From: Dorea longicatena
GTDB taxonomy: Bacteria > Bacillota > Clostridia > Lachnospirales > Lachnospiraceae
Assembly (NCBI RefSeq): GCF_024168045.1
Contig: NZ_CP100126.1
Location: 1,133,501 to 1,197,500 of the forward strand
Direction: 5' to 3'
Length of the DNA: 64,000 bases
Shown: positions 13,999-42,373 of the stretch, in pieces
Layout: each line of letters opens with the position of its first letter
How positions within the stretch are numbered: position 1 is the stretch's first letter
The notes under the pieces: generated by a model
The model's database searches: none
What the model saw: the letters and a program-made list of their open reading frames with translations, nothing else
Told to the model about the DNA's origin: nothing
Translations under genes and position numbers: made by a program

Positions 13999-14071
13999 GC
14001 GATAGTAGTACAGTTGGTAGTACGCCACCTTGCCAAGGTGGAGGTCGCGGGTTCGAGTCCCGTCTGTCGCT
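13999..14071 (+). tRNA. tRNA-Gly (anticodon GCC), copy 1
   Basis: A 73-nt cloverleaf: acceptor GCGATAG/CTGTCGC, D arm GTAC/GTAC, anticodon stem CCACC/GGTGG with loop TTGCCAA (anticodon GCC), 5-nt variable loop, T arm GCGGG/CCCGT with TTCGAGT, discriminator T. CCA is not encoded. It is identical to the second copy 29 bp downstream. Confidence 0.97.
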
Positions 14072-14079
14072 CTGAAAAG

Positions 14080-14200
14080 ACGTTGCAAGTAGTTGTTATG
14101 CGATAGTAGTACAGTTGGTAGTACGCCACCTTGCCAAGGTGGAGGTCGCGGGTTCGAGTCCCGTCTGTCGCTCTGAATTGACTGTTTGCAACGTTTTTTT
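14080..14200 (+). terminator. inverted repeat enclosing tRNA-Gly copy 2, ending in a T run
   Basis: The nine bases at 14080-14088 (ACGTTGCAA) are a perfect inverted repeat of 14186-14194, and the second arm runs straight into seven T (14194-14200). The stem can therefore form only by enclosing the whole second tRNA. The T run presumably terminates the transcript; whether the long-range stem matters is unknown. Confidence 0.55.
14100..14172 (+). tRNA. tRNA-Gly (anticodon GCC), copy 2
   Basis: Identical to copy 1 over all 73 nt, and even the first three bases after the gene (CTG) match, which points to a recent tandem duplication. Both copies share the promoter at 13925-13953. CCA is not encoded. 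Confidence 0.97.
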
Positions 14201-37546: not shown

Positions 37547-39472
37547 ATGAGAGACGGGTTTGTAAAAGTGGCAGCAGTAACTCCGGATATCCGTGTGGCG
37601 GATGTTGCCTATAATACACAAAATATCTGTAAGATGATTGATGAGACTGTTGCAAAAGGAGCAAAAGTTATCGTATTTCCGGAATTATGTGTAACGGGAT
37701 ATACCTGCAGTGATCTTTTTACGCAGGACATTTTGTTAAAGGAATCGAAAGAAGCACTGTTTAAAATAGCCGAATATACAAAAGAGAAGGATGCGATTAT
37801 ATTTATCGGGGTTCCGCTTGCCATAGATGGAGAACTTTATAATGTCGCAGCAGCTTTGAATCATGGTGAGATCCTCGGCCTTACGACGAAGACATTTCTC
37901 CCGAACTATGGGGAGTTTTATGAAATGCGGCAGTTCCGTCCGGGACCGGATAAGGCGAGATGGATCACATTGGATGGAAAGCAGATCCCGTTCGGACCAC
38001 AGCTTTTATTCGTGGCAGATCAGATGGAAGAATTGGTAATCTCCGCAGAAATCTGTGAGGATGTATGGTCGCCGGTTCCGCCAAGTACACTTGCAGCAAG
38101 AGAAGGAGCAACTGTGATCGTGAATTGTTCTGCAAGCGATGAGACGATCGGTAAAGCATCTTATCGTGAAAGCCTGATCGAGGGACAGTCAGCGAGACTG
38201 ATCTGCGGATACATTTATGCCAATGCCGGAGAGGGAGAGTCTACGACAGATCTGGTATTCGGAGGACATAATATTATTGCGGAGAACGGAACAACACTTG
38301 TGTCGAGTGATCGCTTCGCAAATGAAGTGATTTATACAGAATTGGATGTGAAGCGCCTGTTAAGCGAGCGACGTAAGAATACAACATTCCAGACAGAAAA
38401 AGAAAGAATGCTGATCCGTATTCCATTTTCAATCCATGTGGAAGAGACGGAACTTACCAGAAAATTTGCTTCCAGACCGTTTGTTCCAAGTGTGATGGCA
38501 GAGAGAAATTTACGTTGTGAAGAGATTCTGACAATTCAGGCAATGGGACTGAAGAAACGTCTTGCACATGCACATGCAAAGAGTGCGGTTGTCGGAATCT
38601 CCGGCGGACTGGATTCTACACTTGCGCTTCTTGTGTCCGCAAAGGCATTTGATGCACTTGGAATGGACCGCAGTGGAATTACAGCGGTAACAATGCCATG
38701 TTTTGGAACAACGGACAGAACTTATCAGAATGCATGTAAGATGTCACTAAAACTGGGAGCAACACTGCGTGAGATTCCGGTGGGGGCAGCAGTAGAGCAG
38801 CATTTTAAAGATATCGGACATGATCCGGAAGATCACAGTGTAACCTATGAAAATTCCCAGGCAAGAGAAAGAACACAGGTACTGATGGATGTTGCCAATC
38901 AGACCGGTGGAATTGTAATTGGTACAGGAGATATGTCTGAACTTGCTCTTGGATGGGCGACTTATAACGGGGACCATATGTCTATGTATGGAGTCAATGC
39001 GTCGGTTCCAAAGACACTGGTACGCCATCTGGTCCATTATTATGCGGATACCTGTAAAGACCAGGAATTAAAAGATGTCTTGTATGATGTACTGGACACA
39101 CCGGTGAGTCCGGAACTTCTTCCGCCAAAAGACGGTGAGATTGCCCAAAAGACAGAGAATCTGGTCGGACCGTATGAGCTGCATGACTTCTTCTTGTATT
39201 ATCTGCTGAGATTCAGTTATGAACCGGGTAAGATATACCGTATTGCGAGATATGCATTTGACGGTGAATATGATGATGCAACCATTTACAAATGGTTATA
39301 TACGTTCTGCAGACGATTCTTCATCCAGCAGTTTAAACGCTCCTGTCTGCCGGACGGACCAAAGGTAGGAACTGTGGCACTGTCTCCAAGAGGCGACTGG
39401 AGAATGCCGAGTGATGCATGCGCGGAAGTATGGCTGAGAGATCTGGAGAAGGCGAAGCCGGTAGGGATGTAA
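37547..39472 (+). CDS. nadE: NAD+ synthase (glutamine-hydrolysing)
   Basis: Last step of NAD synthesis: amidation of nicotinic acid adenine dinucleotide using glutamine nitrogen. The N-terminal half is a nitrilase-type glutaminase with Glu (FPELCVTGYTC), Lys (TKTFLPNYGEFYE) and Cys (ISAEICEDVW). The C-terminal half is the ATP-dependent ligase with SGGLDSTLALL and GTGDMSELALGWATYNGDH. At 641 aa both domains are complete. AAGGAG precedes the ATG. Its TAA stop is followed without a gap by the 13-bp end repeat of the adjacent accessory island, and the gene itself is intact. Confidence 0.96.
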   Translation: MRDGFVKVAAVTPDIRVADVAYNTQNICKMIDETVAKGAKVIVFPELCVTGYTCSDLFTQDILLKESKEALFKIAEYTKEKDAIIFIGVPLAIDGELYNVAAALNHGEILGLTTKTFLPNYGEFYEMRQFRPGPDKARWITLDGKQIPFGPQLLFVADQMEELVISAEICEDVWSPVPPSTLAAREGATVIVNCSASDETIGKASYRESLIEGQSARLICGYIYANAGEGESTTDLVFGGHNIIAENGTTLVSSDRFANEVIYTELDVKRLLSERRKNTTFQTEKERMLIRIPFSIHVEETELTRKFASRPFVPSVMAERNLRCEEILTIQAMGLKKRLAHAHAKSAVVGISGGLDSTLALLVSAKAFDALGMDRSGITAVTMPCFGTTDRTYQNACKMSLKLGATLREIPVGAAVEQHFKDIGHDPEDHSVTYENSQARERTQVLMDVANQTGGIVIGTGDMSELALGWATYNGDHMSMYGVNASVPKTLVRHLVHYYADTCKDQELKDVLYDVLDTPVSPELLPPKDGEIAQKTENLVGPYELHDFFLYYLLRFSYEPGKIYRIARYAFDGEYDDATIYKWLYTFCRRFFIQQFKRSCLPDGPKVGTVALSPRGDWRMPSDACAEVWLRDLEKAKPVGM

Positions 39473-39756
39473 TTGGGATTTAATTCAGAAAGGCACGACG
39501 ACCCGGACCTGCATAAAAAGTAGGAAGCCGTTCCTGTTCAAGTTCCGGCGGCGGGAAATACTAAAGCGTCAAAATTATGCTAAAAACGGGCTTCCGAAAT
39601 TTGCAACTCGCCATTCGGCTCAAACAGGCAAATTTCGAAAACCCAACGCATAATTTTGACGCTTAACTATTTCCAACACCTTCTTCACATTCACTGGAAC
39701 GGCTTTCTACTTTTTATTCCGTGGGTGTCGAATGCCTTACGAATGAAACCTGCTAA
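39473..39756 (+). repeat. long-arm hairpin element, left copy
   Basis: About 285 bp of nested inverted repeats. Strong arms are 39513-39534 with 39696-39717 (22 bp, one mismatch), 39564-39580 with 39648-39664 (17 bp, perfect) and 39595-39604 with 39628-39637 (10 bp, perfect). The apical 22 nt at 39605-39626 begins AACTCG and ends CTCAAACA, with a small GCC-ATTC-GGC hairpin inside. Outer bases (AAGGCA...GCCTT) also pair loosely. The element starts directly after the nadE stop with TTGGGATTTAATT. No reading frame or known RNA family is recognised. It fills most of the 396-bp gap before the transposase. Confidence 0.85.
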
Positions 39757-39868
39757 GAAAAGTCAATAATTATTTTTATCCTTTTTATTTTCTGTCACAA
39801 AATATATTTGCGTACTACAAATAGACTGTCTGATTGGCAGTCTAAAAAATTATTTATTTTATATAAGA

Positions 39869-41071
39869 TTATATATTTTTATATAGTTCAGTTACTCGAG
39901 CATAATAAATGCGTAAAAACTTATTTAATCCGGCTATCTTTGCTGATTTTTTACTTTTACCTTCTGATTCCTTTTTTACAACATATCGGTAAACCGGATC
40001 TTCTGGTCTGGAACGCATTTTTAAACTTCTCATTGTTTCGTATCCTACTTTGCGCAATGATGCTGAACCACGTTTCGAGATTTTCCTATTACAACCTACA
40101 AATTGACCAGATTCATACGGTGGTGGATCAATTCCTGCGAATGCAACCAATGCCTTCCCGTTGCGAAATCTGCGAACATCTCCTATTTCTGCAATTAACT
40201 TTGGGGCTAATGTATTTCCCACTCCACCCATTTCTCTTACAACCGAATATTCTGGCAAAGTCTTGGCTATTTCCTGCATCCGTGATAAAATTAGACCAAG
40301 GGTTGCATCAACTTCCTTGAGCACCCGAACTGCTTCAGTCACCAGTATTTTGACCGATGAGGTTTCTGAAGGTAATGTGGGAATACTTTCCTGAGCCAGG
40401 GTGTATATAACTTTGGCCTTTTCCTGGCTTGGGACGTATTTCTTTTCTTTTGCCCAAAGTATATACTCTTCAGTAAATTCCTGTTCAGACATAGATGTTA
40501 TTACATCATAATGCCAAAAACGTTCCACAAAATCACTTCTTTTATCTTTCCGATTTGTTTCATTCCAACTTGCAAGAAGATTCTTTATTCCAGGCATGGT
40601 CAAATCTAAAAGATGGGTCAATTCAGCGAGAGATAAAAGATGAAGTTTCATATAATGCCGATATTGCTGTCCAAGCAACTTCAACTCTTTATAAATCTCT
40701 CCAGAAGTTTGAAATTCTTTCATTTTAAACCAATGATCAATTCCATAATTAGCAATGATACGGGAATCAATCTTGTCGGTTTTGGCTTTTCGCAGACTTT
40801 CGTTACGATAACTTTTCATAAGATACGGATTAATTACAGAAACAAAAAATCCTTTTTCCTGTAAATATGTAAGAACTGGAAGATGATAAATTCCGGTTGC
40901 TTCCATAACGATTTTGACTTCATCATTTAGTCTGAAAAGCATGGAAGATAATTCGCTTAAATCCTTTTGGGTATGGGTAATATTGAAAGGCTTACTAACA
41001 ATCTCTCCATATGGTTTCAAAATACATACTGTACTTTTCCCTTTTGATACATCAATTCCTACGCTGATCAT
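39869..41071 (-). CDS. IS110 family transposase
   Basis: Recombinase of 400 aa. The N-terminal RuvC-like DEDD domain has GIDVSK (D7), VMEATG and KTDKIDSRIIA. The C-terminal Transposase_20 domain has the helix-hairpin-helix-like MGGVGNTLAPKLIAEIGD, FAGIDPPPYESGQF and the serine-containing SKRGSASLRKVGYE expected to carry the catalytic serine. No frameshift or stop interrupts it, so it could be active. Members of this family are guided by a bridge RNA encoded in the element's non-coding flank. Codon use and base composition are more AT-rich than the neighbouring housekeeping genes. Confidence 0.95.
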   Translation of the reverse strand: MISVGIDVSKGKSTVCILKPYGEIVSKPFNITHTQKDLSELSSMLFRLNDEVKIVMEATGIYHLPVLTYLQEKGFFVSVINPYLMKSYRNESLRKAKTDKIDSRIIANYGIDHWFKMKEFQTSGEIYKELKLLGQQYRHYMKLHLLSLAELTHLLDLTMPGIKNLLASWNETNRKDKRSDFVERFWHYDVITSMSEQEFTEEYILWAKEKKYVPSQEKAKVIYTLAQESIPTLPSETSSVKILVTEAVRVLKEVDATLGLILSRMQEIAKTLPEYSVVREMGGVGNTLAPKLIAEIGDVRRFRNGKALVAFAGIDPPPYESGQFVGCNRKISKRGSASLRKVGYETMRSLKMRSRPEDPVYRYVVKKESEGKSKKSAKIAGLNKFLRIYYARVTELYKNI

Positions 41072-41094
41072 AATATACTCCTTTTCTTTTTATA

Positions 41095-41335
41095 GAATTG
41101 CAGTTGTTTATCCCATCTACACTTATTATGATTCAGTTTAGTTCGTTACGCGAAAGCTCCTGCGAGTTTCAACCTGCTTAAATGAATGTTTATAATAAGG
41201 GGATGGCTGACGGTTTCATTCACGGATGTGAAAATCCTAATGGCAATATGTCATACCAACTACTTCCCTTATTATAATAAAATAAGTGTAGATGTTAGAG
41301 TTAATTACTCTCTAACAACTACACTTTTATGGTAC
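41095..41335 (-). ncRNA. candidate bridge RNA region of the IS110 element
   Basis: The non-coding flank 5' of the transposase holds nested pairings: 41114-41127 with 41281-41294 (14 bp perfect, CATCTACACTTATT), 41190-41201 with 41266-41277 (12 bp perfect), an internal-loop stem GGAT...TTTCA/TGAAA...ATCC near 41200-41236, and a terminal hairpin 41284-41326. Stems with internal loops are the design of IS110 bridge RNAs. The exact RNA ends, orientation and guide loops are not resolved, and the assignment is by position and structure only. Confidence 0.45.
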
Positions 41336-41381
41336 TAAATGGCAATTGCGTAACCGTAGTGGCCTCCACCGGGTTACATTT

Positions 41382-41677
41382 CCGGGCATTTTATTTATTA
41401 ACATCCGCTGCCAGTCACGACTTGAAGGAAACAATAGATAAGGATTATTGTGAATGTGGAATGCCGTTAGAAACAATTAGAGAGTCAGAAGCACCGTTAA
41501 AGGAACGAAGCGAACGTGTTTGAGGCGAACGCCGAGTTTGAGCGTAGTTCCTTTGCTTTTAGGTGATTCTGGCTCTCTTAGTGTTTCTTATGGTATGGAA
41601 CCTGAACAAGAAGCCTTATCTATTGTTTTCTTCAAGGACTGAGAGGCCGCTTCCCCAGTTAATAAATTAAATCCCAA
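41382..41677 (-). repeat. long-arm hairpin element, right copy (inverted)
   Basis: About 295 bp of nested inverted repeats, in opposite orientation to the left copy. Arms: 41421-41443 with 41614-41636 (23 bp, one G-U), 41469-41495 with 41562-41588 (27 bp, four mismatches) and 41499-41506 with 41547-41554 (8 bp perfect). The apical 22 nt (41517-41538 read on the minus strand) match the left copy at 19 positions. The outer end AATTAAATCCCAA (41665-41677) is the exact reverse complement of 39473-39485 and abuts the stop codon of the S1-domain gene. Confidence 0.85.
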
Positions 41678-42373
41678 CTAATCTAATTTCAACCCTTTGA
41701 ATAAATCTCCGAGACTTGTACCAATCGCCTCAGCTTTAGGAATCTCTACATGGATTTCCTCTTCTTCTTTTTTCTCTTCTTCAAGAGCTTTCATGCTGAG
41801 ACTGATCTTACCGTCTTTTACGCCGATGATCTTTACATTTACCTCATCTCCGACATTTAACACATCAGAAGGTGATTTGATCCGTTTTAAACTGATCTGG
41901 GAGATGTGTACCAGCCCGGAGAGTCCGTCGCCGAGATCTACAAATGCGCCGTAGTTCTGAAGACTTTCTACCGTACCAGTTACTATGCTGCCGACTTTAA
42001 CAGCTGCAATTCGGGCTTCTCTTTCTTTTCTTGCTTTTTCCTGTAGGATCTCACGTGCAGAGAGCACAAGACGGTTATTGGCTTCATCTACATCAATGAC
42101 CCTGACTTCAATATCTTTTAACAGATATGTTTCCAGATCTTCGATATAAGAAAGAGATAATCTGGATGCAGGAATGAATCCGCGGATTCCCTCGATCATG
42201 GCAATGGCTCCGCCGTTCACGATTCCTTCTACTTTTACAGGCAGGATCGTGCCTTTTTCCATATAAGATTTTACTACGTTCCATGGATTTGCATCATCGA
42301 AATGTTCCTCAAGGTCAGCCATTGTAACAGCTGCTTCTGTCTGTGTTTGTTCGTGTAATAATTCTTCGCTCAT
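41678..42373 (-). CDS. S1 RNA-binding domain protein (two S1 repeats)
   Basis: A 231-aa protein with two S1 domains: the first around VKVEGIVNGGAIAMIEGIRGFIPASRLSLSY and the second around GSIVTGTVESLQNYGAFVDL, followed by GLSGLVHISQIS. An acidic linker (EEEKKEEEEIHVE) and a short C-terminal tail end it. It resembles a shortened ribosomal protein S1 or the YugI/CvfD-type RNA-binding factors; the low repeat number argues against a full RpsA. The promoter is at 42441-42470 on the minus strand. Its stop codon touches the inverted-repeat end of the accessory island. Confidence 0.87.
   Translation of the reverse strand: MSEELLHEQTQTEAAVTMADLEEHFDDANPWNVVKSYMEKGTILPVKVEGIVNGGAIAMIEGIRGFIPASRLSLSYIEDLETYLLKDIEVRVIDVDEANNRLVLSAREILQEKARKEREARIAAVKVGSIVTGTVESLQNYGAFVDLGDGLSGLVHISQISLKRIKSPSDVLNVGDEVNVKIIGVKDGKISLSMKALEEEKKEEEEIHVEIPKAEAIGTSLGDLFKGLKLD

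Follow-up and report, generated by a model that had tools for sequence, protein, structure and literature searches.

What kind of element holds on to its tip while the rest of its sequence diverges? This question is raised by two long hairpins of Dorea longicatena, which share an apical motif and differ in most of their arms. The DNA analysed, hereafter the window, is a stretch of 64,000 nucleotides (contig NZ_CP100126.1, positions 1,133,501 to 1,197,500), and the segment 39473-41677 that holds both hairpins corresponds to the space between a nadE-like gene ending at 39472 and a convergent S1-like gene ending at 41678 (Table 1). The analysis indicates that the hairpins are probably dispersed long DNA palindromes with one apical motif and differing arms, likely acting as non-autonomous mobile elements; the prediction is that the apex is recognised in the form of folded single-stranded DNA and that template switching keeps the arms complementary.

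Table 1. Features in and around the intergenic segment (numbering of the window; the names nadE and S1-like are our presumption from the sequence, not the outcome of a family search)
Feature	Position	Strand	Basis or remark
Upstream gene, NAD+ synthetase-like (nadE)	37547..39472	+	ORF, orthologue order
Left long hairpin element	39473..39752	tip strand +	Folds, model R2, arm analysis; 3' end approximate because the IS110 insertion begins near 39746
TTGGGATTTAATT, outer end of left element	39473..39485	+	Abuts nadE stop codon
Left-element arm segment	39554..39580	+	93% complementary to partner 39648-39674
Conserved tip of left element, AACTC-GCC-ATTC-GGC-TCAAACA, AACTCGCCATTCGGCTCAAACA	39605..39626	+	Pattern scan, model R2
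Partner arm segment of 39554-39580	39648..39674	+	Inverted-repeat search
IS110-family insertion sequence between the hairpins	39746..41340, ends approximate	-	Pfam/NCBIfam, alignment to L487
IS110 transposase ORF	39869-41071		Within IS110 element
Right long hairpin element, inverted	41375..41677	tip strand -	Folds, inverted repeats, model R2 (E 0.091)
Conserved tip of right element, AACTC-GGC-GTTC-GCC-TCAAACA, AACTCGGCGTTCGCCTCAAACA	41517..41538	-	Pattern scan, model R2
TTGGGATTTAATT, outer end of right element	41665..41677	-	Abuts stop codon of S1-like gene
Convergent gene, S1-domain-like RNA-binding protein	41678..42373	-	ORF, orthologue order

Two long hairpins between convergent genes

The initial annotation had described two long-arm hairpins with tips agreeing at 19 of 22 positions, and both observations were confirmed. 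The folding energy was −115.4 kcal/mol for the left hairpin (z −8.9) and −98.4 kcal/mol for the right (z −6.7), and in each case none of 100 shuffled sequences folded as well. The tips differ in a single loop base and in one mini-stem pair, which is C-G in one tip and G-C in the other. When up to three mismatches were allowed, the tip pattern was found at just two places in the 64 kb, each with no mismatch (0.21 expected); two or more matches were also obtained in 5 of 100 shuffles. In addition, the first 13 bases of both elements are the same and stand immediately 3' of the stop codons of the two convergent genes, a feature absent from the initial annotation. The left arm segment at 39554-39580 contains a CTAA internal mismatch, and mismatches of the same kind occur in other copies of the family.

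Ten hairpins from other genomes, and no window sequence, were used to build a covariance model, R2. Along the 64-kb window it picked out just these two sites, the left element giving the top match (38.7 bits, E 1.6e-7) and the right element a weak second (17.0 bits). The right element was also absent from the matches at E<=1 to another model, R1, in 50 sources, though the training set of R1 includes the left element. The right element is thus an atypical member of the family.

The same gene neighbourhood elsewhere served as a control. R2 gave no match at E<=1 in 1.18 Mb covering 80 nadE loci, and a tip scan of these loci gave none. By tblastn, only one of the 80 loci, L002, has the S1-like gene adjoining nadE; its stop-to-stop space of about 75 bp contains a small terminator-like hairpin but lacks a long one. 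As L002 comes from a distant relative (77% protein identity), it shows absence of the hairpin and not a fresh insertion. Two nadE loci (L069 near 2924 and L052 near 14911) contain long perfect hairpins whose common apical word is another one, ATGCTTGCAT; these may represent a second family of hairpins with a conserved tip.

A dispersed family of tip-conserved hairpins

A scan of 200 genomes from the family to which G004 belongs, using the tip pattern alone (AACTCG-N3..8-CTCAAACA), gave 61 matches distributed over 31 genomes; the reversed pattern, run as a control, gave 27. Among 29 loci fetched from the tip matches, one per genome, long arms were judged present in 17. Two stricter scans of viral sequences yielded 25 loci, three of which (L258-L260) had arms. 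On the minus strand of one IMG/VR contig (L239), AACTCGCTAACGCTCAAACACTGGCG stands without arms in four places about 3.1 kb apart, within tandem units; this string, present in several other viral contigs too, looks unrelated to the hairpins.

Model R1, which covers the tip plus 15 bp of stem, was positive at E<=0.01 in 20 of 150 genomes from a single family. At E<=0.001, two sets of congeners had 4 positive genomes of 10 and 2 of 2, with up to 39 matches in one genome, and 13 of 299 genomes across the phylum were positive, the centre included. The training sequences of both models were chosen for complementary arms, and those of R1 also by tip; the pair counts of R1 are accordingly not independent evidence, and since the hairpins were found through their tips, the identity of the tips is partly built in. 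A family of structured repeats had originally been suspected from the two window copies alone; the covariance-model search of relatives established it as widespread and rich in further copies.

Known RNA families and publications were also consulted. At the gathering score, Rfam 15 recovered three tRNAs and no hairpin from the window; two tandem tRNA genes, at 13999-14071 and 14100-14172, have equal scores and 28 bases between them. For 11 hairpin loci and the window element, Rfam gave no match at E<=0.01, the best being SCARNA15 (E 0.014, 34 bits versus a cut-off of 65), and no published description of this hairpin family was found among the open-access papers searched. The window hairpins belong to a new dispersed family of long tip-conserved DNA palindromes, the arms of which evolve in concert.

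Dispersal was evident from the comparison of two sister genomes, G033 and G226. A 5-kb stretch of G033 with one element gave 87 match rows against G226, corresponding by our count to 46 distinct places after flank rows and the second strands of palindromes were dropped; 11 of the rows cover exactly the same 289 bases of the query. The G226 site that matches both G033 flanks is without the element. Alignment of 23 G033 copies revealed a core of about 160 nt with 89-95% agreement per 20-nt bin, arms with 58-72% agreement, and the end motifs GGGCCGGAG and CCTAC. No target-site duplication was established from the junctions of the element-free sites L002 and L585.

Among 225 model hits, all 10 pairs of neighbours at most 700 nt apart were ordered + then -, as were all five further neighbour pairs of G226 when oriented by the better BLAST strand, and the window hairpins are likewise tip-convergent, + then -. 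With respect to replication, 17 of 21 copies in G033 were opposite the leading strand, and 16 of 24 in G098 and 3 of 4 in G226 were on it; a lagging-strand preference was dropped because its sign is inconsistent between these genomes.

Mini-stem and loop of the tip

Mini-stems from 38 genomes and from the window are mostly 2 bp and at most 5 bp long, and they differ in sequence with their pairing maintained. The covariation guessed at from a single pair of tips is thus borne out between genomes. The form GC-GC was found in 47 of 70 tallied cores; others were GCC-GGC, GGC-GCC, GCCC-GGGC, GAGC-GCTC, GTGC-GCAC, CGGC-GCCG and GCATC-GATGC, and a few cores were unpaired. On the complement strand, loops closing as GNA or GNNA were detected in 49 of the 70 tallied cores (49 of 94 with 24 untallied cores that are not of this kind) and in 31 of 39 sources, versus none of 70 on the tip strand. 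Loops of GNA or GNNA with at least two G-C pairs are described as extraordinarily stable DNA mini-hairpins (PMC4686876). The strand reading TGTTTGAGC-GNA-GCGAGTT in most genomes would then be the one recognised, its apex being able to form a very stable d(GCGNAGC) mini-hairpin. The window tips close on no such loop, the complement reading GAAT in the left element and GAAC or AA in the right.

Folding strand: DNA or RNA

Arm statistics were collected for 105 distinct hairpins (108 rows less three duplicates), giving 9802 aligned cells. Arms were mostly 90-175 nt long, and 8683 cells (89%) were Watson-Crick pairs. Mismatch cells on the tip strand were C.T (356), A.C (220), A.A (196), G.T (135, or 1.4% of cells), A.G (76), T.T (71), C.C (50) and G.G (15). 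Read on the complement, they become G.A, G.T, T.T and so on, which are the more stable kinds of mismatch. The complement accommodates the mismatches better in 94 of the 105 hairpins and the tip strand does so in 5, with 6 ties, a count inflated by shared ancestry; by genome, the complement was favoured in 22 and the tip strand in 3, with 3 ties. Moreover, A.A mismatches recur in several genomes at distances of about 51 and 61 nt from the centre (about 57 and 67 in G033), appearing as TAA facing TAA about 10 nt apart. Together with the tip loops, the mismatch types single out the complement strand, and on this basis we lean towards folded DNA over RNA.

The mismatch asymmetry would also suit an RNA of the complement strand, as G.A, G.T and T.T would be tolerated there too. 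The hairpins might then be structured non-coding RNAs or 3'-UTR elements, transcribed and selected for their fold as RNA, for instance as message stabilisers or through protein binding at the loop. Covariation of the mini-stem would be expected of such an RNA, and the window loops do not belong to the stable DNA type. The position of the arms also agrees with it: a sense frame of at least 150 codons lies just upstream in 61 of 108 hairpin rows, and for these 61 the arm ends within 16 nt of the upstream stop codon in 19 and runs more than 16 nt into the upstream frame in two, one of the frames (L324) being probably not a gene. In the same 61 hairpins, however, the best-folding strand is antisense to the upstream gene. 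The gene context is mixed as well, with flanking orientations among 106 hairpins of +|+ 31, -|- 24, +|- 18, -|+ 14 and 19 incomplete. An RNA of the tip strand should have more G.T than A.C mismatches, and the reverse was seen; the negative Rfam result also argues against RNA. We therefore regard an RNA element as rather unlikely.

Concerted evolution of the arms

The initial annotation had taken conserved pairing in the arms as a sign of selection on the folded form. To see how pairing is conserved, 20 copies of G033 were compared; a position entered the count only if it was paired in either copy of a comparison, a rule biased towards kept pairing. On this basis, 2.5% of paired positions differ beside the tip, with an increase to 55% at a distance of 120-139 nt, where two-sided changes with pairing kept amount to 53.6% and one-sided changes to 0.9%; at 40-79 nt, one-sided changes were 5-6% and two-sided changes 9-10%. 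For orthologous outer arms of G033 and G226, two-sided versus one-sided changes were 3 versus 3 and 10 versus 4 at two loci, and a third locus had none. The notion that the arms are unrelated in all copies proved wrong, as the inner arms are homologous within a genome.

Several loci point to template switching. In one G033 copy (L318), the right arm extends as an inverted copy of the left flank common to both species, and the G226 copy (L405) has no such arm; growth in the former or loss in the latter would both fit. The right arms of L217 and L225 terminate in an imperfect inverted copy of the coding end of the upstream gene. At one orthologous locus, the hairpins of G220 and G098 stand in opposite orientation between matching flanks, which could be due to independent insertion instead of inversion.

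Template switching is described to homogenise inverted repeats and to invert their centre (PMC8604942). As judged from these alignments, it would explain the two-sided changes, the inverted centre and the arm that copies its flank, with no need of selection. Pairing of the arms alone is therefore no proof of selection. The mini-stem and the recurrent mismatches offer better support for selection on the folded form than arm pairing does, so that the original claim is upheld in part, without its argument from the paired arms.

If template switching accounts for so much, the palindromes might be purely mutational, grown and homogenised during replication and spread by recombination only, with neither enzyme nor function. 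The two-sided arm changes, the flank-matching arm and the inversion are all in accord with this explanation, and the homogenisation and spacer inversion that it invokes are documented processes. However, the covarying mini-stem and the recurrent A.A mismatches outlast homogenisation, and copies with common end motifs stand at loci that are empty in a sister species. A purely mutational origin is thus considered improbable.

A more elaborate form of the mobile hairpin may be put forward only tentatively, and we doubt that it holds in full: the apex and inner stem would be carried as folded single-stranded DNA, the outer arms would be built by inverted copying of local DNA at each site, and the element could flip in place. 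The outer arms of G033 are partly alignable and the end motifs are common to the copies; therefore the outer arms are not wholly local sequence. For G433, insertion into the loops of older palindromes was considered, and the outer arms of 60-80 bp together with the inverted coding ends of L217 and L225 speak more for growth by copying. In this genome (L565-L580), copies stand at many contig ends, and their outer arms match other copies and not always each other, as if recombined between copies. At one locus, G226 (L400) has a pair of complete hairpins whose outer arms are long and near-perfect; G033 (L522) has one worn core hairpin without such arms.

Search for a mobilising enzyme

According to the reading that we favour, in which the hairpins are mobile DNA palindromes, a putative trans-acting enzyme would move them, the apex would be recognised as folded single-stranded DNA, and template switching would keep both arms complementary by rewriting them together. 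Among the RAYT/Y1 and IS110 candidates tested, no mobilising enzyme was found.

REP-like elements moved in trans by a REP-associated tyrosine transposase (RAYT) were considered as a model. RAYT-like proteins are present in some hairpin-bearing genomes; G033 and G226 have a single RAYT-like gene each, about 2.7 kb from a hairpin, and G252 has a short RAYT about 0.5 kb from one. The + then - pairs of hairpins also recall those of REPINs. Against this model, RAYT-like proteins were found in 4 of 20 hairpin-positive genomes versus 35 of 150 overall; there is no association, even though these four genomes supplied the query. A Y1_Tnp match at E<=0.001 was lacking in 7 of 16 genomes that bear hairpins. 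No hairpin was detected at E<=10 in 18 Y1 loci, and the short RAYT of G252 as query found none of 150 genomes in a search run without a positive control. RAYT or another Y1 transposase was consequently dropped as the mobiliser, since its presence does not track the hairpins and the 18 Y1 loci searched are hairpin-free, and we hold this explanation to be quite improbable.

The hairpins might instead be parts of the IS110 element or intrinsic terminators, given that an IS110 element lies between the window hairpins and that L002 has a small terminator-like hairpin at the same place. Yet none of 20 loci with IS110 relatives contained a hairpin at E<=1, and a hairpin-free copy, L487, matches the window IS110 with 67% identity over most of its length; the IS110 element was dropped as owner of the hairpins and is a separate insertion, probably a later one. 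Intrinsic terminators were dropped too, as there is no excess of T-tracts after the hairpin base (of 102 hairpins, 5 have one on the tip strand and 7 on the complement, versus 5% at random positions). Both explanations are thus very hard to sustain. The non-coding part of the IS110 element upstream of the transposase (41072-41340) includes an inverted repeat, 41114-41127 / 41281-41294, and is presumably the place where IS110 elements carry the bridge RNA.

Implications and comparison with known systems

If this interpretation is right, Clostridia harbour a widespread repeat family that is absent from Rfam, and the concerted evolution of palindrome arms can be traced in nature over dozens of copies. 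What is maintained by selection (the mini-stem and set mismatches) could then be told apart from what is maintained by copying (arm pairing), and claims of structure that rely on arm covariation would call for caution. It would also point to a putative enzyme that should recognise a DNA mini-hairpin.

We take the hairpins to bear a general resemblance to the attC sites of integrons, where a hairpin of a folded strand with RYYYAAC/GTTRRRY boxes is used by an integrase. Of the MITE, recombination target and non-coding RNA offered at the outset, the MITE-like reading fits best, and the evidence leans against a role as RNA. Like MITEs, the hairpins are short, non-coding, dispersed, multi-copy and intergenic, with element-free sites in relatives. 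In contrast, MITEs have two short terminal repeats, whereas each hairpin is one near-complete palindrome, and no parent transposon was found in the 18 Y1 and 20 IS110 loci. Also unlike MITEs, the centre is best conserved, and the arms differ between copies and match within a copy.

IS1111 is, we assume, an element of the IS110 kind. In Coxiella it is described as inserted into the MITE QMITE2 (PMC10969869), a likeness in that such an element stands at a palindromic repeat; in the window, the IS110 element lies instead between two hairpins.

REPs and REPINs with their RAYT are likewise extragenic palindromes occurring in inverted pairs, and REPs are processed as single-stranded hairpins. REP stems are, however, described as 7-20 nt long (PMC6006769), far shorter than the present arms; REPs have a GT[AG]G foot, whereas the hairpins have a conserved apex and no association with RAYT genes. 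The stem-loop families of Cozzuto et al. 2008 (PMC2267715) are also repeated bacterial stem-loops, two Clostridium species being included, but the portions of that paper considered describe no tip-conserved, arm-variable family, and its main text nowhere contains the string 'Lachnospir'. Template-switched quasipalindromes resemble the hairpins in arms made identical by copying, in spacer inversion and in arm growth. The hairpins differ from them in forming a multi-copy family with a fixed apex, in which certain mismatches persist.
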